From a virus, in the IMG/VR virus record IMGVR_UViG_3300022220_000003, positions 1-64,000 of that record: a DNA stretch of 64,000 bases; one strand, 5' to 3'. The notes beneath the pieces are model-generated. The model was not told the origin of the DNA, ran no database searches, and worked only from the letters and a program-made list of their open reading frames with translations. The position numbers were made by a program, and so were the translations under genes. This document shows positions 8,575-64,000 of the stretch, piece after piece. Each line of letters begins with the position of its first letter. The stretch's first letter is position 1.

Positions 8575-9235
8575 CCCCCCACCGTGCCTAGGCCTTTTCG
8601 AGCCGACAGACGGCGAGTGTAGCGGCTCCGAGGCCGATCCCTTGCCTTGCACGTGGCGAGATCGCTGTGGGGCCTTTAAAACGTATTTACGGCGCTCTAA
8701 ACAAAGGGCAGCTCGGTGGCTCGAGCTCGAGGGGTGGGAGATCCGGCGGTGGTGCGACCAATGGATCGAGGCCTACGAGATCGAAAACGGGTTACCCAAA
8801 AACGAGACGCCTCCCACATTGGCTGGGGACCTGCGCCAGGCCTTCGAGCAGGTGGTGGACTACCTTTCGAGCAACACCCACCAAATCGGCCGACAGTTTG
8901 CCAGAGACCGCCTAGCGCTCCCCGGGGAGCTCTACCTCGTGGATCGAATGGCGCAAGCCCGATACGTGGCAATTTATGCCCGGGCGCACCAAGGACACGA
9001 TCGGCCGGTGGTGCGGCTGAGGTACAAGCCACGGGCGGGAGTGGTCGAGCTCCGATTGCCTGTTGAGGCCACCGAGGCGGCCCGAGCTCTCGGGGTGGAC
9101 GCGGTGGCGATCAAATCGGGCCAGTTTCGGGCCCGGGCGGATCTCGGTCTCGAGACCCTCGAGGGGGTAGGCGCTCGGATCTTAGCGTTGGCTAAAACGG
9201 GGGCGATCAAATTGCCACCGGCGGGGGTTAAATGA
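8564..9235 (+). CDS. Hypothetical early protein with N-terminal Cys cluster
   Basis: 223 residues from TTG at 8564, with GGGGGGAT just upstream and no later good start before the conserved Cys cluster. The N-terminus has four Cys (CLGLF, ECSG, LPCTW, RCGAF) in a pattern common to small Zn-binding phage proteins. Residues 35-110 are helical and basic. The C-terminal third is beta/alpha (VVRLRYKPRAGVVELRLP). No family recognised. It overlaps the next gene by four bases. Confidence 0.65.
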   Translation: MAIDPPPCLGLFEPTDGECSGSEADPLPCTWRDRCGAFKTYLRRSKQRAARWLELEGWEIRRWCDQWIEAYEIENGLPKNETPPTLAGDLRQAFEQVVDYLSSNTHQIGRQFARDRLALPGELYLVDRMAQARYVAIYARAHQGHDRPVVRLRYKPRAGVVELRLPVEATEAARALGVDAVAIKSGQFRARADLGLETLEGVGARILALAKTGAIKLPPAGVK

Positions 9236-9474
9236 CACCAAAAGTCGCGTTGCACCGCGGGCCTGAGGCCCTGAATCGAGCTGACCTCGACGTGCTCGGC
9301 GATGGCGTGGACGTGATTTCGATCGCTCCTGTGTGTCATACAGGGGCGCCGGTGTTTGTTGGCTATTCGGCCCATGAGGGGGCCTTGGCTCTCGTGTGTG
9401 CGGTATGCCGCAAGCTCGTCACCAAGGTGCAAGTGGCAGACACCGGCCCCCAATCAAGCGAGGAGATCCACTAG
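9232..9474 (+). CDS. Small protein with CAVC zinc-knuckle half
   Basis: 80 residues, unknown. VCHTG and CAVCRKL may bind a metal ion. The start overlaps the previous stop (ATGA), and the stop shares its last base with the next GTG start. Confidence 0.6.
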   Translation: MTPKVALHRGPEALNRADLDVLGDGVDVISIAPVCHTGAPVFVGYSAHEGALALVCAVCRKLVTKVQVADTGPQSSEEIH

Positions 9475-9746
9475 TGGCCGCGCTCCCCGAGCTTGCCCGG
9501 GCGGTGGGGCTCGACCCCGTGCTTTGCCCACATTGTGGCCGGCGGGTGCACACTCTCGACGCGATCGATCTGTTGTTTCGTACTATCCTCGAGCGGGTTC
9601 GCAAGGGTGAGGCCGTGACAATTCGACGGTTTGGGACTTTTAGGGCAGCTCGGCGGGTGGGGCGAGGGATCGGTAAAGACGTTGGTGATTATGTGGTGAT
9701 CCGGTTTCGCGCCTCTCCCCGAGCCAAGGAGGTGATCCGTGGTTGA
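9474..9746 (+). CDS. HU/IHF-like DNA-binding protein with a zinc-ribbon insertion
   Basis: 90 residues from GTG at 9474. The C-terminal two thirds match the HU/IHF fold: a dimerisation helix (LDAIDLLFRTILERVRKGEAV), the signature RRFGTFRAARR in place of the usual GFGTFxxRxR, a basic arm, then YVVIRFRASPRAKEVI. The DNA-bending proline of the HU arm is not obvious. Inserted near the N-terminus is a Zn-ribbon half CPHCGRRVH (residues 18-26), not a normal part of HU. Likely role: nucleoid or replication/packaging architecture. Confidence 0.75.
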   Translation: MAALPELARAVGLDPVLCPHCGRRVHTLDAIDLLFRTILERVRKGEAVTIRRFGTFRAARRVGRGIGKDVGDYVVIRFRASPRAKEVIRG

Positions 9747-10263
9747 CTCCAAGGGGATCGGGATCTTGGGCTCACGTCGACCTAAAAAAGACCGGCCGGT
9801 GGCCAAGCCACGGCCCGAGGCCACGGTGGAGGCAGCCAAAAAGGCAGACCTCGGGCGGCCCCCAACCGAGCTCGAGTTTGCGTTACAGGCGGGTGAGATC
9901 TCCGAGCGGCTCAAAGCATTTGAGGAGGGTGAGGCCGAGCTCGAGCGTAGCTTGGCCGCGGCCGAGGTGCAGGTCAACGGGCGGCGGGTGGTACTGAGCC
10001 GGATCCGGACCCAAGAGCACGTGGGCTTACTGCTCGCCGAGGCCACCCGCGAACAAATGGACGCCGAGGCCCACTATCGAGCCTGGCGAGCTCGCCTTGG
10101 TCTCGAGATCGTGACTAGGGCGAAAAAGGAGGTGCCCGAGTGGCGCGTTAGGCAACTAATAGAGTCCGAGCCCAACTACCTCACCTACCAGCAAGGCCTG
10201 GCACGGGCGGCGGCGAACGTCCTGATCTTAAAGGCTGTGTGGGAGACGTGGGGCGATGAGTGA
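9739..10263 (+). CDS. Coiled-coil early protein, possibly recombination-related
   Basis: 174 residues from GTG. A basic, low-complexity N-terminus is followed by long helices (SERLKAFEEGEAELERSLAAAE) and a C-terminal region (WRVRQLIESEPNYLTYQQGLARAAANV) like that of small phage recombination/ssDNA accessory proteins. That resemblance is weak. It overlaps both neighbours. Confidence 0.55.
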   Translation: MVDSKGIGILGSRRPKKDRPVAKPRPEATVEAAKKADLGRPPTELEFALQAGEISERLKAFEEGEAELERSLAAAEVQVNGRRVVLSRIRTQEHVGLLLAEATREQMDAEAHYRAWRARLGLEIVTRAKKEVPEWRVRQLIESEPNYLTYQQGLARAAANVLILKAVWETWGDE

Positions 10264-10480
10264 TTATACCAAGTGGCGCAACCGGCGAGGAGTGGTCCAT
10301 TACACCCGCGAGCGGTGGCCCGAGGGTCCAACAAATGCGCTTTGTGGTGTCGAGATAGATCCGCAATTCGATAGGCGCACAAATATCAATCTGAGGAGGT
10401 GCAAGCGATGTTTGGCTACTGTGGAGGAGACCACCAATTATGCAATACGTGGCTATCGATACCGAGACCACCGGACTTGA
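10256..10480 (+). CDS. Small zinc-finger phage protein
   Basis: 74 residues. The pattern GVVHYTR...ALCGVE...NLRRCKRCL (His, Cys, then CxxC) is a widespread small zinc-binding family of phage early regions, of unknown function. It overlaps the previous gene by 8 bases and the next by 41. Confidence 0.65.
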   Translation: MSDYTKWRNRRGVVHYTRERWPEGPTNALCGVEIDPQFDRRTNINLRRCKRCLATVEETTNYAIRGYRYRDHRT

Positions 10481-11027
10481 GCCAGGGTGGGATCAAGTTT
10501 TACACATCGCCCTAGTCCACGAGGATACGGCGCGGGCGGAGGCGTGGGAGGTCAACGAGCTCCCCTATTTCGAGGCGTTGATCTATCACGAGCGGATCGA
10601 GGGCGCTGCCTTTGCGCTCAACATGAACCACGAGATCCTCGAGGCGTTCGCCGATTTTAAACCCACCGAGGCCACCGCGGAGCTGCGGGGGCGGGTGGTG
10701 CCTGTTTTCGGGGACCTCGAGAGCGTCTTGGATGAGGCCAAGATCTGGCTTGCCAATTGCCACGACCATGCGGGGCCTTATGTGGCGGCAGGCAAAAATG
10801 TAGCGGGGTTTGATCTCCAATTCTTGGGCCGAGACTGGCGGCGAGAGTTTCACCACCGGGCGATTGAGGCCGGATCGGTGGCGCTCGGTGGTCAACCATT
10901 CCGGTGGCAACATGACAAGGTGTCGGGGCTCGCCGAGCTCAACGAGGGCAATCCGTGCCCGCATGATGCCCTTTGGGATGCCCGCGGCGTGGTGGAGGTC
11001 TTGCGCAAGGTGGGGGGCTACCTATGA
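10440..11027 (+). CDS. DEDDh 3'-5' exonuclease (DnaQ-like)
   Basis: 195 residues. Exo I: AIDTETTGL (Asp and Glu ligands, residues 5-13). Exo II: NVAGFDLQF (Asp). Exo III: PHDALWDA (His and the last Asp five residues later, the DEDDh form). It would degrade single-stranded DNA or RNA 3'-5' using two metal ions; a role in nucleotide recycling or proofreading in trans is inferred. It is larger than oligoribonuclease because of an insertion around residues 40-90. The stop overlaps the next ATG. Confidence 0.85.
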   Translation: MQYVAIDTETTGLEPGWDQVLHIALVHEDTARAEAWEVNELPYFEALIYHERIEGAAFALNMNHEILEAFADFKPTEATAELRGRVVPVFGDLESVLDEAKIWLANCHDHAGPYVAAGKNVAGFDLQFLGRDWRREFHHRAIEAGSVALGGQPFRWQHDKVSGLAELNEGNPCPHDALWDARGVVEVLRKVGGYL

Positions 11028-11662
11028 CCGCCAAAGGTAGGGGCAAGCGGTCCAAGATCCCAGGGGATCGATATTACACTCCCGAGTGGGTTGTTGACGT
11101 ATGCCTTGAGATGGTGTTGCCCGTGATTTGCTTGCGGGCCCCCAAGTTGATCCTCGAACCCTCGGCGGGGACCGGGCGGTTTTTGGGGCCACTTCGCAAG
11201 CGATACCCCGAGGCGCATATCGTGGCCATTGACAACGATCCCGAGGTGGGGCCGTGGCCTGAGGCCGATGAGAGCTTGACCGAGGACTACCTCGACTTTC
11301 GTCCGGATCCGCGGGTCAAGTTTGACCTGACGATTGGTAACCCCCCGTTCAGTTTCACCAAGGACTTTTGCGAGCACGCCTTGACCATGTCCAAGGCGGT
11401 GGTTTTCCTCGCACGCTACGGGATCCTCAGTGCAGCCAGGCGGGCCAAGTTTTGGCGAGATCATAGGCCTTCCCACATTTTCAACTTGGCCAACCGGCCT
11501 AACTTCGATGTGCCGCCCGAGTTCCAAGAGGAATACGAGGACGCGGGCGGGGATTTTTGCGAGTATTGCTTTATATGCTGGGCTAAGCCCAAAAACGAGG
11601 CCACCCTCTTTGAGTGGTTGCCATCGGTACCCAAAGAGGTGCGACAGGGGGCAAGCGGGTGA
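11024..11662 (+). CDS. Adenine-specific DNA methyltransferase
   Basis: 212 residues from the ATG at 11024 (ATGA overlap). Motif I, EPSAGTGRFL, binds S-adenosylmethionine, and motif IV, NPPFSF, marks an N6-adenine class enzyme. A Cys-rich stretch (FCEYCFICW) follows near the C-terminus. There is no restriction partner nearby, so it is an orphan methyltransferase, probably protecting phage DNA from host restriction. It is short and lacks an evident separate target-recognition domain. Confidence 0.85.
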   Translation: MTAKGRGKRSKIPGDRYYTPEWVVDVCLEMVLPVICLRAPKLILEPSAGTGRFLGPLRKRYPEAHIVAIDNDPEVGPWPEADESLTEDYLDFRPDPRVKFDLTIGNPPFSFTKDFCEHALTMSKAVVFLARYGILSAARRAKFWRDHRPSHIFNLANRPNFDVPPEFQEEYEDAGGDFCEYCFICWAKPKNEATLFEWLPSVPKEVRQGASG

Positions 11663-56395: not shown

Positions 56396-57862
56396 ATGCC
56401 CGAGCCGATCCCAATGCTCCCCAGCGGTGACGCCTTGGCCGACGCCGGGCGGGATGCATTGATCGACTATTACGACCATTGCAAATCGATGGCCGGCGAG
56501 TGGGTCTATCGCCAGGTGGTGGATAACTGCCGGGCGGATATCTTGGCGGCGATCCTCGGGTATGAGGTGCAGCCGTTTCATTTGGCCCTGATGGTGTTTC
56601 AAATGCTGCACCCCGACAATTTGCAGCTCTGTTTTCGGGGTGCAGGCAAAACCACCGTTTGCACGGTGACCCGGGCGATCTTTATGCTGATCCGCAACCG
56701 GGACTTGCGGATCCTCATAGCCTCGAAAACCAAGGGCAACGCCGAGAGCATGCTCAAGGAGATCAAGGGACACCTCGAGGAAAACCAGCGACTGATCGAG
56801 GTCTTTGGGTTGTTTTACGATCCGGCGGTGGTGACCAAATGGGATAACACCGAGATCGAGATCCTCGGGCGCAGCCGCAAGACCAAAGAGAGCTCGATCA
56901 TAGCAATCGGTGTTTCGGGTGCCTTGGCCTCCAAACACGTTGACGTGATCTTGGCCGATGACTTGGTGGACGAAGAAAACGCCCGTACCAAGTATATGCG
57001 AGACCGCGTCAAGCAGTGGTATTATCAGATCTTGGATCCGGTCCTCGAGCCACCCGAGCCCGGGTTTTTGCACCGCGGTGAGTTTCACCGGTTGGGGACC
57101 AGATATCATTTTGATGACCTATACGGGCATCTGATGTCGAATGAGCTCAAGGAGCACCACCAAGTGATCCCCGCGCTCGACTCAAACGAGCGCAGCCCGT
57201 GGCCCGAAAAATTTCCGCCCGATTGGTTCAAAGCCAAAAAGGAAAAATCAGGTACGATTATATTCAACGCTCAATACCAGTGCGATACCGAGGCAATGAA
57301 GGGCGAGATCTTCCAATATGACGATTGCCAACAGGTTTCGGCTGACGACGTGCCCGCGGGTCTCAAGGTCTACATGGGTGTTGACTTGGCGATCACCGAG
57401 CAGGAACAAAACGACATGTTTTGCATAGTGGTGGGAGGTCTAGACCAGGCCGAAAACTGGTATGTGATTGACTATTTCGAGGGCCACCTCCGATTTGCAG
57501 CCCAAACCGCGGCGATCAAGCGCTACTACAAAAAACACGATCCTATCCGGGCGGCCATTGAGACCAATAGCTACCAGGCGGCCCAATACCAGACCCTCAA
57601 AGATGAGGATCAGAGCTTGCGGCTTATGCCGGTGCACACCGAGAAAGACAAGATCACCAGAGCTTGGAAGGTCTCACCGAGGTTTGAAAATAAGCAGATG
57701 TTTTTCGTCAAGGGGGGCAATATCCACAAGCTGATCGAGGCGATCGTTTTATTCCCCTCGCATCGATACAAGGACCCGTTTGACGCCTTGGACATGATGC
57801 TCAGGGCCAGCAAAGTGCGTCGACGCCGCAAGCGGCGACAACGTGAACCGGGGATCATCTGA
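56396..57862 (+). CDS. terL: Terminase large subunit
   Basis: 488 residues. ATPase: Walker A LCFRGAGKTT near residue 83, Walker B DVILADDLVD near residue 185, coupling region. RNase H-fold nuclease: VDLAITEQEQND (about residue 327), later Asp/Glu in the C-terminal half (IEAIVLFPSHRYKDPFDALDM). It cuts concatemers and pumps DNA into proheads through the portal encoded next. The stop overlaps the portal ATG. Confidence 0.92.
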   Translation: MPEPIPMLPSGDALADAGRDALIDYYDHCKSMAGEWVYRQVVDNCRADILAAILGYEVQPFHLALMVFQMLHPDNLQLCFRGAGKTTVCTVTRAIFMLIRNRDLRILIASKTKGNAESMLKEIKGHLEENQRLIEVFGLFYDPAVVTKWDNTEIEILGRSRKTKESSIIAIGVSGALASKHVDVILADDLVDEENARTKYMRDRVKQWYYQILDPVLEPPEPGFLHRGEFHRLGTRYHFDDLYGHLMSNELKEHHQVIPALDSNERSPWPEKFPPDWFKAKKEKSGTIIFNAQYQCDTEAMKGEIFQYDDCQQVSADDVPAGLKVYMGVDLAITEQEQNDMFCIVVGGLDQAENWYVIDYFEGHLRFAAQTAAIKRYYKKHDPIRAAIETNSYQAAQYQTLKDEDQSLRLMPVHTEKDKITRAWKVSPRFENKQMFFVKGGNIHKLIEAIVLFPSHRYKDPFDALDMMLRASKVRRRRKRRQREPGII

Positions 57863-59652
57863 TGACAGACAGCACCACCACCGCCACCCGAGTGAGCAAC
57901 GCCACCAACAAGCGGGCCCTGCGGGCCGTTGTGATCGGCATGCGCAAGCGTGCGGCCGAGGTGCCGCACCCTAAAAACCTCGAGGAGGGGCGGCCCGAGC
58001 CGGGGCAATCCAAGGCCCTCACCGAGGACCCGTTCGAGGCTTTGACGGCCGAGGGTCGGTTGATTGAACCACCGTTTGACCTGCTCACCTTGGCCATGTT
58101 GCCCGAGCATTCGAGCGAGCTCGGCCAATGCGTCGAGGCCTACGAGGTTAATATCGAGGGGTTTGGGTTTCGGTTTGTGCCGCGGATCCGATCCAATGTA
58201 GATATGGCCAAGCTCGATCCGGTGTTGCGTGACGCAGTGCAGCTCGAAAAAACCGAGCTCGAAAATTTTTTTGCCTACTGCTCTGGAAGGCTCTCGTGGG
58301 TTGAGACGCGGCGGCGGGTGCGAAAGGACCTCGAAACTACAGGCAACGGGTATCTAGAGGTGGTCCGCAACGCGGCGGGCAAGATCCAAGGGCTCAACCA
58401 CCTACCAAGTTATCAAATGCGCCTTGGTGGCCTCGATCAAGAGGCGGTCAAGGTGGCATTGCCGATTCACGAGCTCCAAACCGATGGGTCTATCAGGATT
58501 GTGCGGGTGCCCTCGTGGGAGCGGTTTCGGCGGTTTGCGCAATCACGATCTTTGTTGCTACGCCATGCCACCCATGTGGGCCGATACGCGATCCGGTGGT
58601 TCAAGGAATTTGGGGATCCACGGGTGTATGACTACGAATCGGGCGAGGAGGCCAAGGGCGAGGATATCGCCAAGCTCCCACCCGAGCGGCGGGCCAACGA
58701 GTTGATCCATTTCAAGCTTTACAGCCCCCGCAGCCCGTACGGCCTACCTCGGACGATTGGCAATCTATTGAGTATCTTTGGCGCGAGAGCGGCCGAGGAG
58801 ATCAACTACACCACGTTTCGCAACAACAACATACCATCAATGTTGCTCTTGGTATCCAATGGCCAGCTCACCGAGGGATCAATTGATCGGATCGAGAGCT
58901 TTGTCGAATCCCAGATCCAGGGGTCGGACAACTACAGCAAATTTTTACTCGTTGAGGCCGAGGGGCTCGGCGAGGAGGGCGAGGACACGGGCCACGTCAA
59001 GGTCGAGGTTGAGCGGCTTGTTGAGCAACAACACAAAGACGCCCTGTTCCAAAACTACTCGGGCAACGCAGACAGCCGGATCCGGCGGGCCTTCCGATTG
59101 CCACCGATCCTTGTGGGCCGGGCCGATGATTACACCCGGGCCACGGCGGACACCTCGAGGCGATTGGCAGACGAGCAGATCTTTGCTCCCGAGCGCAATA
59201 TCCACGACGATACGGTCAACCGGTTGTTATTTCCCGACATGGGGATCGTGTACCACAAGTACAAGAGCAACACCCCCAACACCACTGACAACGCCGAGCT
59301 AGTCAAGATCCTCGGCGGGGCTGAGAAAACCGGTGGCATGACCCCAAGGATCGCCCGGTTGTTGCTCGAGGATATTCTTGGCCAAGACTTGCCAGGGTTC
59401 CCGGCCGAGTTTGCAGACAAGGCCGATATGCCGTTTAGCCTGCTCATGGCCGAGGCGGTGCAAAACAAGGCAGACCCGGCGGAGCCGGGGCAACAGGTAA
59501 CGGCGATCAAGGCCTTGGACTTTATCGAAAAACTGACCGGTGGGGAGCTCGGCGAAATCGAGGAGGCCGAGCTCGCCAAAACCGCGGTGCAAATCAATCG
59601 GCACTTCGAGAAACGATGGCGCCGAGAGGTCAAGGCTAGTCTAGCGGGATAA
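57862..59652 (+). CDS. Portal protein
   Basis: 596 residues. PFDLLTLAMLPEHSSELGQCVEAYEVNIEGFGF, ETTGNGYLEVVRNAAG, LIHFKLYSPRSPYGLPR, FRNNNIPSMLLLVSNG and RIRRAFRLPPILVGRADDYT follow the PBSX-type portal order. Forms the dodecameric DNA channel at one head vertex. Size is slightly above average; the C-terminus is helical. Confidence 0.9.
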   Translation: MTDSTTTATRVSNATNKRALRAVVIGMRKRAAEVPHPKNLEEGRPEPGQSKALTEDPFEALTAEGRLIEPPFDLLTLAMLPEHSSELGQCVEAYEVNIEGFGFRFVPRIRSNVDMAKLDPVLRDAVQLEKTELENFFAYCSGRLSWVETRRRVRKDLETTGNGYLEVVRNAAGKIQGLNHLPSYQMRLGGLDQEAVKVALPIHELQTDGSIRIVRVPSWERFRRFAQSRSLLLRHATHVGRYAIRWFKEFGDPRVYDYESGEEAKGEDIAKLPPERRANELIHFKLYSPRSPYGLPRTIGNLLSIFGARAAEEINYTTFRNNNIPSMLLLVSNGQLTEGSIDRIESFVESQIQGSDNYSKFLLVEAEGLGEEGEDTGHVKVEVERLVEQQHKDALFQNYSGNADSRIRRAFRLPPILVGRADDYTRATADTSRRLADEQIFAPERNIHDDTVNRLLFPDMGIVYHKYKSNTPNTTDNAELVKILGGAEKTGGMTPRIARLLLEDILGQDLPGFPAEFADKADMPFSLLMAEAVQNKADPAEPGQQVTAIKALDFIEKLTGGELGEIEEAELAKTAVQINRHFEKRWRREVKASLAG

Positions 59653-60648
59653 ATGAACATCGGGGCCCTGTTTGATCAGGTCCGAGCCACCGATCAAGCC
59701 GTGGCCAAGGCTCTCGGGATCTCGGAGGTGGCGCAAATTGCCCGGACCGAGACGCGCCTCCGTGAATACCTCTTGGCCGAGTGGCAGACCCGAGCCAACA
59801 AGGCGGCGGCCCAAGCCGCAACATTGACCCGCAAGGGGGCTACAGCTCGCCAAGTCAACGCAGCGGTGGCCATGGGTCTCAAACCGTGGGCCGAGGTGGT
59901 GGCCCCCCGTATGGATCGGGAGCTCGCCAAGGTCTACCGGTTGGCCAAGATCGCGGGATGGCGCAAAGCAACAGGCCAAACCAAGGCCCCGTTGACCTAC
60001 GATACCCCGAATTTTGAGCAGATGGCCAAGGCCGCACCCCGTGAGGGATTTGCGGTTTTGCCTACGTTTGACAAGCTTGACATTGACACGGTTGACGCCC
60101 TCACCGAGCAACAGATGTTTTGGCTCGGGGCTCACTACGAGGAAAACGTGGGGGCCACGATAGCTAGCACCGTGTCGGAGGTGATGGCCCAAGAGGGGCG
60201 AAATCGCCAAGTGGCCGCGGTTACGATGCGAGAGCGGCTCGCCGAGACCTTGGGCCAGGTGGTGACCCCGGCCGGGTGGCATGGGTCGGTGCGTCAATAC
60301 ATGGAAGGGGTGGCAGCCAATGCCGCCACCGTGGGCCGGGCCTATGGGCAAGTGGCCGCGTTCAACGAGGCCGGTGTAACACGCTACGAGATCGCAAATC
60401 CCACCGATGAGAGGACTTGTCCGGTTTGCTCGCATATGGACGGTAAAAACTTCACCGTCGAGCAGGCCAACCAACAGATCGCGGCGGAGCTCAAGGCCGA
60501 GAGCAGAGACGATATCAAGTCAACACACCCATGGTACAACTATAAAGAGCTAACGAGTATCAGCCTCAAGGCCGGCAATGTGAGCCCGCAAGACTCCGCG
60601 GCCCTCGCCAAGGCCGGTTTTCCCTTGCCGCCATTCCATTTCAGATGA
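59653..60648 (+). CDS. MuF-like minor head protein
   Basis: 331 residues, starting at the base after the portal stop. The C-terminal ERTCPVCSHMDGKNFTVEQA and PPFHFR match the Mu gpF/SPP1 gp7 head morphogenesis family, which binds portal and may enter the host with DNA. The N-terminus is helical. Confidence 0.85.
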   Translation: MNIGALFDQVRATDQAVAKALGISEVAQIARTETRLREYLLAEWQTRANKAAAQAATLTRKGATARQVNAAVAMGLKPWAEVVAPRMDRELAKVYRLAKIAGWRKATGQTKAPLTYDTPNFEQMAKAAPREGFAVLPTFDKLDIDTVDALTEQQMFWLGAHYEENVGATIASTVSEVMAQEGRNRQVAAVTMRERLAETLGQVVTPAGWHGSVRQYMEGVAANAATVGRAYGQVAAFNEAGVTRYEIANPTDERTCPVCSHMDGKNFTVEQANQQIAAELKAESRDDIKSTHPWYNYKELTSISLKAGNVSPQDSAALAKAGFPLPPFHFR

Positions 60649-60687: not shown

Positions 60688-63243
60688 ATGCAATTGAGCA
60701 CGACCCCAACCCGCAGGCGAGCTCGCCGAGCTCGTGTTGTCAAAACCGTGACCTCGCAAGACCTCGCCACAAGCGGCAAGCTCAAGGATGCGGGTTTGCC
60801 CGGTGGGAGTGGGATCACCGAGTTGTGGGGTCTAGCGGTGAGCAAAACGGCGGCGGCCGAGCTCTTGGTGGGCAAGATCAACACTGTCGCCAAAACGACC
60901 GATTTGGACCTATCAAAACGCACGATGGTGGTGCTCGCCGAGGGCCGGGCCCTCGGGGAGGTGCAGCTCGGCAAAAAGGTTGAGGCGAGGACGTGGGCAA
61001 TCAAATCGGCCAAGGTTTTTGACCGGCCCAAGCCCACCAACATACCGGCGGTGGCCAATGGTGTGGTTAAAGGGGTGCGCCTGCTCGAGCGGCTCAAGGC
61101 TACAGCAATAGAGGAACCGGTAACCAAGAGCCAGGCCAAAACCTACAATCCGCGGCCAGTGGTCGATTCGGTGCTCTTGGCGGACGTGCGGGCCTTAAAA
61201 GAGTGGGGCGAGGAGGTGGCTTTCAAAAAGGCGCTCACCGAGGTGGAGCGGCGGGGCTTGCAGCTCCCCCAGCTCGAGCTTGCCCCCGATACCGATCCCG
61301 AGATCTTGACGTCCACCGAGCTCTTGGAGGCCCACCGAGCGCTACATGTGGCCAAGGGGTGGAGCTCCGAGGACGCGATCAACGTGCATGCCCAGATAGT
61401 GGCCGAGCTCGCCGATCGCGGCATGCCTCACCCCGAGCCACCTCCGGGCCTTGATCAACGCTCCGAGCCGTTGGAGCCGGGCGAGGTCCAGATCACAAAA
61501 GCAGCGGCCGAGGTGGCCTTGGCCGAGCTCGTGGCCTCGGTCGAGCAATATCCGGTTTTGGTCCATAAACGTGTTGAGGGCCGGGCGGTGGTGGTGGCCA
61601 AGACCGGGGATCAAGTCAAAGTGGTCGGTGAGGATGGGACCGATCATACCGCGGAGGTGCCCGAGGTGGCCCGAGCGGTGGCAGCTCTCAAGGCCGAGGC
61701 GGTGGAGCTCGAGGGGGTGCTCGAGCCGTGGCACGGTGGCGAGGTGTTGCAGGTCCAAGATCTCGTTTATGCCGGCCGGGATCTTCGAGATTGGCCGGTA
61801 TCCAAGCGGCTCGAGCGATTGGCCGAGCTCGGTATCGAGCAGGCCACCGCGTCAACGCCGAGCCGGCGGATACCTGTTAACGAGCTCCCCACAATCGAGG
61901 CCACAGACGGCGAGGCTCTCGAGCGGGCGATCCGTGTCGTCAAATCCTTACCCGGGGCGGCGGGCGTGGTGGTGAAGCCCGCAACTTCTATTGACCCGGG
62001 CGAGTGGCTCGAGCTCGAGGCCGAGCCGGTGGCCAAGGTTGCGCTCTCGGGGCCGGTGCCTTTTGTGTGGCGTGGGTCCGAGATCTTGATCGGTACCCCC
62101 GGCGGGCGGAGGGTCGAGCGGTGGCAGCTCGAAGGGGAAGCGGCCGAGGCACAGATCGCCAAACGCCGGGCGCCAATGTCGTGGGGTGCACTGCGGGCCG
62201 AGTCCACCGAGCGAGGGGAGGCGGAGCTCGGGGCGGTCAAGCCGTGGTGCCGCGAGTATTTTTTGCGAGGTGAGCAGGCGGCCCACCGGTTGGTGGTCCG
62301 CAAAATGCAGATCGGCGAGCTACAAAAGGCGGTCCATTCGTACACCCAATGCATGGTTTGCCGAGCGGCCCCTGTAATTGACGTGTTGTGGGCCGATGGC
62401 CGCGGCCGAGCTTGGTTTTGCAAGGGGTGTTATCCCAAATGGATCCACAAGGGCGGAGGCGCCAAGACTCTCGAAGTGATTGGCACCAAGGCAATTATCG
62501 GTGGCCGAGCTCCCGCCAAGTATTCAGACCGCCACAACCGTGTCACAACCACCAAGGCCGCGAGCCCCCACGAGCTCGGCGAGTGGATTGTAATCCGTTC
62601 AAACGACCCCACGCCCATGGTGTTGCAGGCCGAATCAGTAACCAAGCGATGGATCCCACCGCTTGGTGTGTCAGCCTTGCCGCGATCTGTGGCCGAGCAA
62701 GTACCGCTTGATCTCGCCTATTGGCAAGCAGGTACTTTGGTGGAGGCCCGCGAGCTCCGTGATCAACTTGTGTCAAAGATTGACAAGGGGGAGGTTGAGA
62801 TCGATTACTCCGCGGCGTACACACCCAAGCCCGCGTCAGAACCTGTCACACAACCAACTACCGAGCCGGCGGAATTGTTTGTTTCCATTGCCAAAATTGA
62901 CACCGACCGGCAAATCGTGACAGGTATAGTCTTAGAACCGGGCGAGGTCGATGCTCAAAACGATACTATCACTGCCGAGGTTATCGAAAAAGCATCGATC
63001 AATTTTCTGTCCCGGTATAATTCCGAGACTCAACTAGGGTTTATGCACAAAATTTTTGGCGAGATCGGATTGCAGCTCGCCGCCAGTTGGGTAGCACTGA
63101 GTAACCAGACGCTTGGCGGCAAAAAGGTCAAGCGAGGCTCGTGGCTTATGAGCGTCAAGGTTGTGGACCCCAAGTTGTGGGCTCGCGTCAAAAAGGGCGA
63201 GTTTGCGGGGTTCTCGATCGGCGGTGTTGCAAAGGTGCGATAA
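60688..63243 (+). CDS. XkdF-type prohead protease carrying a DNA ligase-like nucleotidyltransferase domain and a zinc ribbon
   Basis: 851 residues, AGGAGG upstream. C-terminal about 120 residues: XkdF-like serine protease (VTGIVLEPGEVDAQNDTITAEVI, LGFMHKIF, KKVKRGSWLMSVKVVD, FAGFSIGGVAKV), which matures proheads. Residues about 285-435 resemble the adenylation domain of ATP-dependent DNA ligases: LVHKRVEGRAVVV (motif I-like), VELEGVLEPW (III), VQDLVYAGRDLRDWPVSKRLERL (IIIa) and AAGVVVKPA (IV). The motif-I lysine is shifted or replaced (KRVEGR versus KxDGxR), so activity is doubtful. Residues 555-585 hold CMVC...CKGC, a zinc ribbon. Most XkdF proteins are far shorter. Confidence 0.75.
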   Translation: MQLSTTPTRRRARRARVVKTVTSQDLATSGKLKDAGLPGGSGITELWGLAVSKTAAAELLVGKINTVAKTTDLDLSKRTMVVLAEGRALGEVQLGKKVEARTWAIKSAKVFDRPKPTNIPAVANGVVKGVRLLERLKATAIEEPVTKSQAKTYNPRPVVDSVLLADVRALKEWGEEVAFKKALTEVERRGLQLPQLELAPDTDPEILTSTELLEAHRALHVAKGWSSEDAINVHAQIVAELADRGMPHPEPPPGLDQRSEPLEPGEVQITKAAAEVALAELVASVEQYPVLVHKRVEGRAVVVAKTGDQVKVVGEDGTDHTAEVPEVARAVAALKAEAVELEGVLEPWHGGEVLQVQDLVYAGRDLRDWPVSKRLERLAELGIEQATASTPSRRIPVNELPTIEATDGEALERAIRVVKSLPGAAGVVVKPATSIDPGEWLELEAEPVAKVALSGPVPFVWRGSEILIGTPGGRRVERWQLEGEAAEAQIAKRRAPMSWGALRAESTERGEAELGAVKPWCREYFLRGEQAAHRLVVRKMQIGELQKAVHSYTQCMVCRAAPVIDVLWADGRGRAWFCKGCYPKWIHKGGGAKTLEVIGTKAIIGGRAPAKYSDRHNRVTTTKAASPHELGEWIVIRSNDPTPMVLQAESVTKRWIPPLGVSALPRSVAEQVPLDLAYWQAGTLVEARELRDQLVSKIDKGEVEIDYSAAYTPKPASEPVTQPTTEPAELFVSIAKIDTDRQIVTGIVLEPGEVDAQNDTITAEVIEKASINFLSRYNSETQLGFMHKIFGEIGLQLAASWVALSNQTLGGKKVKRGSWLMSVKVVDPKLWARVKKGEFAGFSIGGVAKVR

Positions 63244-64000
63244 ATGGCAACCAAAGAGCAACTGAAGAACGCGCGAGAGTTACTTGATCTAGATGTCAAG
63301 GAAGTCTCGTTGGTGGATAAGCCCGCAAACCTGCGGGAATTTTTGATCGTGAAACGTCGAGCCGAGAGCAATCTCGGTGAGTTTGAGGTTGAGCCCTCGG
63401 TGGTCGAGTGGCTCGACAAAATGGCGGGCACCCCCGGGGCCCCCACTGAGTCAATCCAAGCCCTTGCGGCGGCATTAACAGGAGGCACCCCGATGGAAAC
63501 TGTGGAAATGATCAAGGCTCGCCACGTTTACGAGGTTGAGGTCCAAAAGGCCGGGCAGACCGAGGAGACCCCAGAGCAGCTCGAGCAACGGCACGCGGCG
63601 GAGCTCGAGCAGGTCCAAAAGGCCGACGCCGACAACCCGGCCGAGCCCGAGGCCAAACCGGCGGAGCCGGCGGCCGAGCCAGAGACCAAACCGGCGGAGC
63701 CCGAGGCCAAACCCGAAACCGAGCCCGTGACCAAAAGCGAGCCGGCGGCCGAGCCCGATCTGGATGAGGAGCCGGCGGTCGTGATCAAACGGGATGGTTC
63801 GATCCACGTGGCGGGCCAGACCGTGCAAAAAGCCAAGACGTTTGGCAAAGCCAAAACCGCCACCCTGCAAAACGCGGTGCAGGCCTTGGCCAAGCTTTTG
63901 GGCGATGTGTCCGAGGACGCGCTCAAGTCCGCCATGGCTCCCTACATGGACCCATCCAAAAAGGTGGAGACCACCAAGGCGGCCGATACCGAGCCGGCGG
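63244..64000 (+). CDS. Scaffold-like head protein, cut by the window end
   Basis: Starts with the ATG directly after the protease stop and stays open to the window end (at least 252 residues). EVSLVDKPANLREFLIVKR near the N-terminus is characteristic of proteins beside XkdF-type proteases; the rest is Ala/Pro/Glu/Lys-rich (KPAEPAAEP repeats) and helical, as in capsid scaffolds. Capsid should follow beyond the window. Confidence 0.75.
   Translation, partial: MATKEQLKNARELLDLDVKEVSLVDKPANLREFLIVKRRAESNLGEFEVEPSVVEWLDKMAGTPGAPTESIQALAAALTGGTPMETVEMIKARHVYEVEVQKAGQTEETPEQLEQRHAAELEQVQKADADNPAEPEAKPAEPAAEPETKPAEPEAKPETEPVTKSEPAAEPDLDEEPAVVIKRDGSIHVAGQTVQKAKTFGKAKTATLQNAVQALAKLLGDVSEDALKSAMAPYMDPSKKVETTKAADTEPA

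Follow-up and report, generated by a model that had tools for sequence, protein, structure and literature searches.

Few parts of viral genomes are as conservative as phage head genes, and only a small number of cases are known in which the capsid carries enzymes or other proteins, among them P1 Dar and the T4 internal proteins. P1 DarB, encoded by a gene listed beside those of the portal and the prohead protease, is a 250 kDa antirestriction protein that is packaged in the capsid and is believed to enter the cell (PMC9024508). DarB is a functional analogue of the role that we propose below, likened to it by role and layout only; it is a separate protein with its own packaging signal and is not fused to the protease.

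Prohead proteases of the XkdF / Peptidase_S78_2 type (PF14550; phrog_3017) are compact in the cultured phages that we examined, where the genes have about 140–310 codons and no N-terminal extension, or where XkdF starts a longer protein. A DNA-modifying enzyme in front of XkdF has already been clustered, as a combination of a D12 methyltransferase with XkdF of unknown function (phrog_13242), and the profile match contained neither a ligase nor the SALP module described here. In many phages of Pseudomonas, Lactococcus and Escherichia, the XkdF protease carries the name 'DNA methyltransferase' (for example HE983845 and NC_041869; phrog_1530). This label is plausibly an annotation error transferred from methyltransferase–XkdF fusions such as phrog_13242, a likely misnaming that the fusion family described here also exposes.

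ANMV-1, a virus of uncultured methane-seep archaea, encodes an 'ATP-dependent DNA ligase' (KP703175, 3200–5800) directly after its portal gene, and the 2015 paper on that virus makes no mention of this ligase. The protein contains a ligase domain (PF01068, E 5.9e-17) followed by a SALP module, in the same order as in the protein that we analyse. The two proteins differ in that the ANMV-1 ligase motifs are intact (KKFDG, SEG), in that a pol-beta-like module stands in front, and in that ANMV-1 has neither a fused XkdF nor a zinc-ribbon insert.

The locus and its modules

We analysed a 64,000-nucleotide stretch of viral DNA (hereafter the window), where a forward-strand ORF with an ATG start (60688–63243) encodes the 851-residue protein P0001, as the preliminary description had given. 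Judged from full-length relatives and dN/dS, the ORF encodes a prohead protease whose large N-terminal extension goes back to a DNA-repair polyprotein. Full-length relatives occur in two other viral contigs, L001 (78% identity) and L002 (70% identity), and the whole-protein dN/dS within this clade is about 0.2. Upstream on the same strand lie genes for the terminase large subunit (56396–57862; phrog_38, 1.9e-75), the portal protein (57862–59652; phrog_12, 1.6e-37) and a minor head protein (59653–60648; phrog_115, 7.9e-6). A scaffold-like ORF stands directly 3′ on the forward strand (63244–63999) and is cut by the window's end; the major capsid gene comes after it in L001 and L002, and lies beyond the window's end in P0001's virus. 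The scaffold-like ORF begins with DLDVKEVSLVDKPAN, a match to the N-terminal end of the phrog_3017 protease family (E 8e-4) that would fit a splitting or rearrangement of the usual protease–scaffold protein. In L001 (positions 51–809), the start of the portal ORF resembles an intein C-terminus (...VTRRNGRVLVSGN/S) just ahead of DYNRATADTSRR, and the window's portal is uninterrupted at that site.

The C-terminus of P0001 is predicted, convincingly and unambiguously, to be an XkdF prohead protease. The domain spans residues 731–851 (62878–63240, forward strand), and its PF14550 match covers residues 734–849 (E 4.5e-26; 91.8 bits against a cut-off of 24). P0001 shares its catalytic-domain sequence with other XkdF proteases, including His787 and Ser843, which are invariant in all 29 family members that have XkdF. 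It also shares their position between the portal and major capsid genes, the latter as seen in L001 and L002.

The N-terminal extension is modular, and all of its segments are read from the forward strand. Residues 197–264 (61276–61479) form a module common to the giant relatives L045, L022 and L037, and an HMM built from these three matches P0001 at 6e-18. There follow a pseudo-ligase nucleotidyltransferase domain (residues 264–442; 61477–62013), identified by profile, hhalign, structure model and alignment, and a family-conserved segment with the HEYF motif (residues 510–542; 62215–62313) that contains LGAVKPWCREYFLRG. A Cys4 zinc-ribbon-like segment comes next (C555-x2-C558 ... C578-x2-C581; 62350–62430); both Cys pairs are invariant in the two closest relatives, L001 and L002, and L045 holds a related Cys segment. 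The preliminary description had recognized this order of a zinc ribbon and then XkdF downstream of a ligase-like domain. Between the zinc-ribbon-like segment and XkdF lies the SALP module (residues 627–724; 62566–62859), KRWIPPLGVSALP, a family hallmark common to the ANMV-1 protein. We define the SALP family by this module (WIPPxGxSALP) with a ligase and/or methyltransferase upstream, and P0001 belongs to it, matching the module HMMs for SALP (6e-34), ligase (1e-14) and XkdF (2e-64).

The parent family of head-operon fusions

By scanning IMG/VR with degenerate DNA patterns for the SALP segment, we retrieved 28 and then 78 stretches, and discarded about ten short matches as chance. Module HMMs found SALP in 83 contigs and the ligase domain in 50 (the window and ANMV-1 are part of both counts). 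Between the portal/minor-head and scaffold/capsid genes, about 80 contigs have a gene for a giant protein of up to ~1800 aa, composed of a pol-beta-like nucleotidyltransferase, a D12 or C5 methyltransferase, a usually intact ligase and LigD-phosphoesterase-like domains. L045 (1584 aa) carries, in order, the N-terminal module, the pol-beta-like domain, a D12 adenine methyltransferase, the ATP ligase, a phosphoesterase-like domain, HEYF, SALP, a second phosphoesterase-like domain and XkdF. Elsewhere a C5 cytosine methyltransferase takes the place of D12 (L072), a pyrimidine-dimer glycosylase match lies barely over the Pfam cut-off (L021; weaker in L023 and L026), a metallo-beta-lactamase domain occurs with LAGLIDADG repeats (L020), or the protein looks intein-bearing (L048).

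Where a contig shows it, the fusion gene usually follows the portal and minor head genes and precedes the scaffold and capsid genes, giving the order TerL–portal–minor head–fusion–scaffold–MCP. Protease fusion is not universal in the family: XkdF is fused in 29 contigs, and many relatives with a ligase lack it in fused form. In L099 and L090, XkdF is missing from the fusion, and a stand-alone prohead protease gene comes directly after it (PF04586, E 2e-9 and 6e-10); therefore, the linkage to the protease slot is kept there even without fusion. Among 50,697 phage records, the ligase–SALP part is found only in ANMV-1, in line with the preliminary description's view that this is not a standard phage arrangement. 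That description missed P0001's membership in a parent family, because comparison was needed to see it.

Some domain names rest on remote matches. The pol-beta-like label derives from a GG...GDIDI signature and a weak Pfam match in L021, and the domain has no PDB match. For the phosphoesterase-like domains, PE2 has weak PDB matches to 3p43 (E 1.7e-4) and to 3p4h (E 1.7e-3), a chain that bears the name ATP-dependent DNA ligase N-terminal domain protein, and PE1 has a weak PDB match (E 0.19) and retains an invariant H-x6-H-x-D-x-R pattern. At E 0.01, P0001, L001 and L002 gave no match to PE1 or PE2. In P0001, 73 residues separate the ligase from HEYF, versus 276 in L045, L022 and L060, and none separate SALP from XkdF, versus 124 in intact relatives; therefore, both phosphoesterase-like domains are gone. 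PE1 and PE2 are common but not universal in the SALP family, and we read their absence from P0001 as a probable secondary loss within it. From its sequence, P0001 is thus best described as a cut-down protein with a dead ligase, belonging to a family whose giant members join DNA-repair and DNA-modification enzymes at the position of the prohead protease.

Several neighbouring genes are also unusual. The minor head protein beside the giant fusion of L045 (2151–4868) contains Hint/intein splicing domains, and its counterpart in L037 is enlarged as well (1289 aa). The gene upstream of the L072 fusion (8693–11038; 782 aa) combines a 2′-5′ RNA ligase-like domain with a D12 methyltransferase, two domains that in L030 lie inside the XkdF fusion. 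An AAA+ ATPase gene stands immediately downstream of an XkdF-less ligase–SALP fusion in L078 (5153–6670).

The ligase-like domain and its catalytic residues

Searches with the single P0001 sequence gave no ligase match in Pfam, PHROGs or the PDB, and tblastn of its ligase domain alone against phage records gave chance matches only. PF01068 matched the relative L001 at E 0.24, which is sub-threshold but colinear. The C-terminal 232 residues of P0001 led by tblastn to the ANMV-1 gene (39% identity over KRWIPPLGVSALP...YW...RD), and pairwise BLASTP aligned the ligase regions of the two proteins in the same order. We then used a held-out HMM built from 10 ligase domains of other contigs, none from the P0001 clade, which scored P0001 at 94 bits (E 4.4e-23 at Z=1e8); none of the controls, 1000 shuffles and 604 other reading frames of the window, exceeded 5.3 bits. 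By hhalign, the P0001 clade matched 28 intact family ligases at 99.7% (E 3.8e-27), and among PDB entries the intact-family profile in turn matched DNA ligases from archaea and human (E ~1e-20 to 1e-18).

An AF2 model of residues 255–465, made with 39 sequences, reached a pLDDT of 81.9 (about 95 in the core), as compared with 40 when the alignment held three sequences. For this model, Foldseek and VIA-align ranked DNA ligases at the top, P. furiosus 2cfm and Thermococcus 4eq5 both having a Z of 17.9. The model supports the sequence result and is not independent of it, because its alignment includes intact ligases. Together, profiles and model assign residues ~264–442 to a genuine ATP-dependent DNA ligase nucleotidyltransferase fold, extending the region of about 285–435 where the preliminary description had placed such a domain; both the profile comparison and the structure comparison with ligase adenylation domains, which it had proposed as checks, agree with it.

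Motifs were located at residues 294–299 (I, KRVEGR), 341–348 (III, LEGVLEPW), 354–378 (IIIa), 423–430 (IV, GAAGVVVK) and 440–444 (V, WLELE). P0001 thus has the fold and motif order of archaeal and eukaryotic ATP-dependent ligases (P. furiosus 2cfm, Thermococcus 4eq5/3rr5, human LIG1 1x9n), but it differs from them in lacking the adenylated Lys and other catalytic residues, in a deletion between motifs III and IIIa, and in the shortness of the sequence that follows motif V, at the expected place of the OB domain. The position of the motif-I Lys is R295 (R295-V-E-G rather than KxDG) and the Asp that follows is E297; this Lys is retained in 41 of the 47 family contigs with a readable motif I. The Glu of motif III has become V344, the Glu of motif IV A425 and the Lys of motif V E442; the two Glu and the Lys that P0001 has replaced are invariant in all 35 aligned relatives. 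The deletion removes a stretch of ~22 residues with an invariant His and Arg. Across the same 35 relatives, 26 columns are at least 90% conserved, and P0001 retains 10 of them, including Gly, Pro, Trp and a few charged positions. L001 and L002 have the same catalytic losses. Where the preliminary description noted that the motif-I Lys context is altered, it was correct but understated the change, as all four key catalytic residues are gone.

The ligase domain of P0001 has lost the residues that lysine adenylation and nick sealing require and is almost certainly dead, judging from these residues, although losing consensus residues does not prove that all nucleotide or DNA binding has been lost. 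Within the P0001 clade, simple NG86 estimates give a dN/dS of 0.19–0.21 for the ligase domain versus 0.07–0.10 for XkdF, and the most constrained parts of P0001 are the protease, zinc-ribbon and SALP segments. The substitution pattern indicates that the ligase domain is constrained and not decaying freely, and we call it a maintained pseudo-ligase because purifying selection persists (dN/dS ~0.2). We considered whether a second ligase in the same record substitutes for it, and rejected this, as neither PF01068 nor PF01653 had a match in the 93 kb of this record (possibly incomplete or a fragment). PF02086 likewise found no methyltransferase in these 93 kb, which may be an incomplete record.

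Proposed role and its alternatives

We think it probable that P0001 is the virus's prohead (capsid maturation) protease and that its long N-terminal extension is the remnant of a larger fusion of DNA-repair and DNA-modification enzymes. P0001 lacks the phosphoesterase-like, pol-beta-like and methyltransferase domains of its relatives, and what remains is under purifying selection. Prohead proteases are enclosed in the procapsid, and we infer from this that an N-terminal part fused to one enters the head with it and, in full-size relatives, that it is delivered as a kit of enzymes. There, a capsid-loaded kit would repair, seal, clean or methylate viral DNA in the particle or on entry; among the head genes, relatives with intact ligases occupy the same place as P0001. 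Self-removal by prohead proteases, together with removal of proteins close by, is frequent, and the extension might instead be degraded in this way. In P0001's virus, the ligase domain would be unable to ligate or AMPylate. The residues close the enzymatic options for P0001; therefore, a DNA-binding, packaging or assembly role remains, and the domain would persist as such a module of the protease. Two options raised in the preliminary description, binding of nucleic acid ends and a dead structural module, survive the residue analysis, and its option of AMPylation does not.

A broader reading, which we offer tentatively and hold to be possible but short of probable, is that a tailed-virus family nearly absent from isolates uses fusion or adjacency to the prohead protease to load a multi-enzyme DNA kit into the procapsid, that this kit travels with the genome and serves to repair and mark the viral DNA, and that in P0001 it has degenerated into a pseudo-ligase, which has taken on a new, non-catalytic role. 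The kit would comprise a pol-beta-like nucleotidyltransferase, DNA methyltransferases, an ATP ligase, a LigD-like 3′-phosphoesterase and sometimes pyrimidine-dimer glycosylase or metallo-beta-lactamase domains. Each domain is already known, as is the methyltransferase–XkdF combination. A ligase–phosphoesterase–XkdF fusion or a prohead-protease pseudo-ligase was not described in the open literature searched, which included few subscription papers and covered preprints poorly. The fusion of repair and methylation enzymes into the prohead protease gene in many uncultured viruses, with an unfused counterpart in an archaeal virus, suggests that enzyme carriage in capsids may occur on a larger scale.

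The extension may instead be a plain scaffold or assembly domain, a dead fold co-opted for contacts with the portal, the scaffold or packaged DNA as the head is assembled, with no repair role in this virus and none inside the capsid in its ancestors. The loss of all catalytic residues while the fold and a dN/dS of ~0.2 are kept fits this well, as do the adjacency of the protease to scaffold and capsid genes and the strong constraint on protease, zinc ribbon and SALP. It is hard, however, to see why most relatives would have intact catalytic residues and extra DNA enzymes if only structure mattered, and we regard this explanation as unlikely, at roughly one chance in a few. Less plausible still, and in our view improbable, is that the giant relatives are cytoplasmic repair/modification enzymes for which XkdF fusion is a mere convenience of linkage, autocleavage freeing them before assembly so that nothing is packaged. 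The separate protease genes of L099 and L090 and the many relatives without a fused XkdF would be expected in that case, but the place in the head operon is constant across very divergent contigs, and P1 has a related layout with a packaged DarB.

There is very little room for P0001 being an active, unusual nucleotidyltransferase that uses K294 or another lysine to AMPylate capsid components, AMPylation being one of the options in the preliminary description. K294, beside the lost lysine, is conserved in the P0001 clade and the fold is retained, but the change of Lys to Arg in motif I, the replacements in motif III (Glu to Val), motif IV (Glu to Ala) and motif V (Lys to Glu) and the deletion of the stretch with the invariant His and Arg effectively exclude it, and a similar multi-motif loss is found in two other contigs, L066 and L108. 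A chance resemblance to ligase motifs with no ligase fold would agree with the empty single-sequence Pfam and PDB searches, but is ruled out by the held-out profile with its clean controls (E 4e-23), the hhalign match (99.7%) and the structure match (Z 17.9).

The proteins of L066 (4933–6972) and L108 (827–4690) are further family members fused to XkdF, whose degraded ligase motifs read KRHDG/GSRG and KRFNV/TSKG, respectively; their losses are possibly independent, as far as the motifs indicate. A tree of the SALP and XkdF region resolved too poorly to tell a single origin of the dead lineages from repeated ones. The dead ligases of the P0001 clade, L066 and L108 provide a natural comparison of what a ligase fold does without catalysis.
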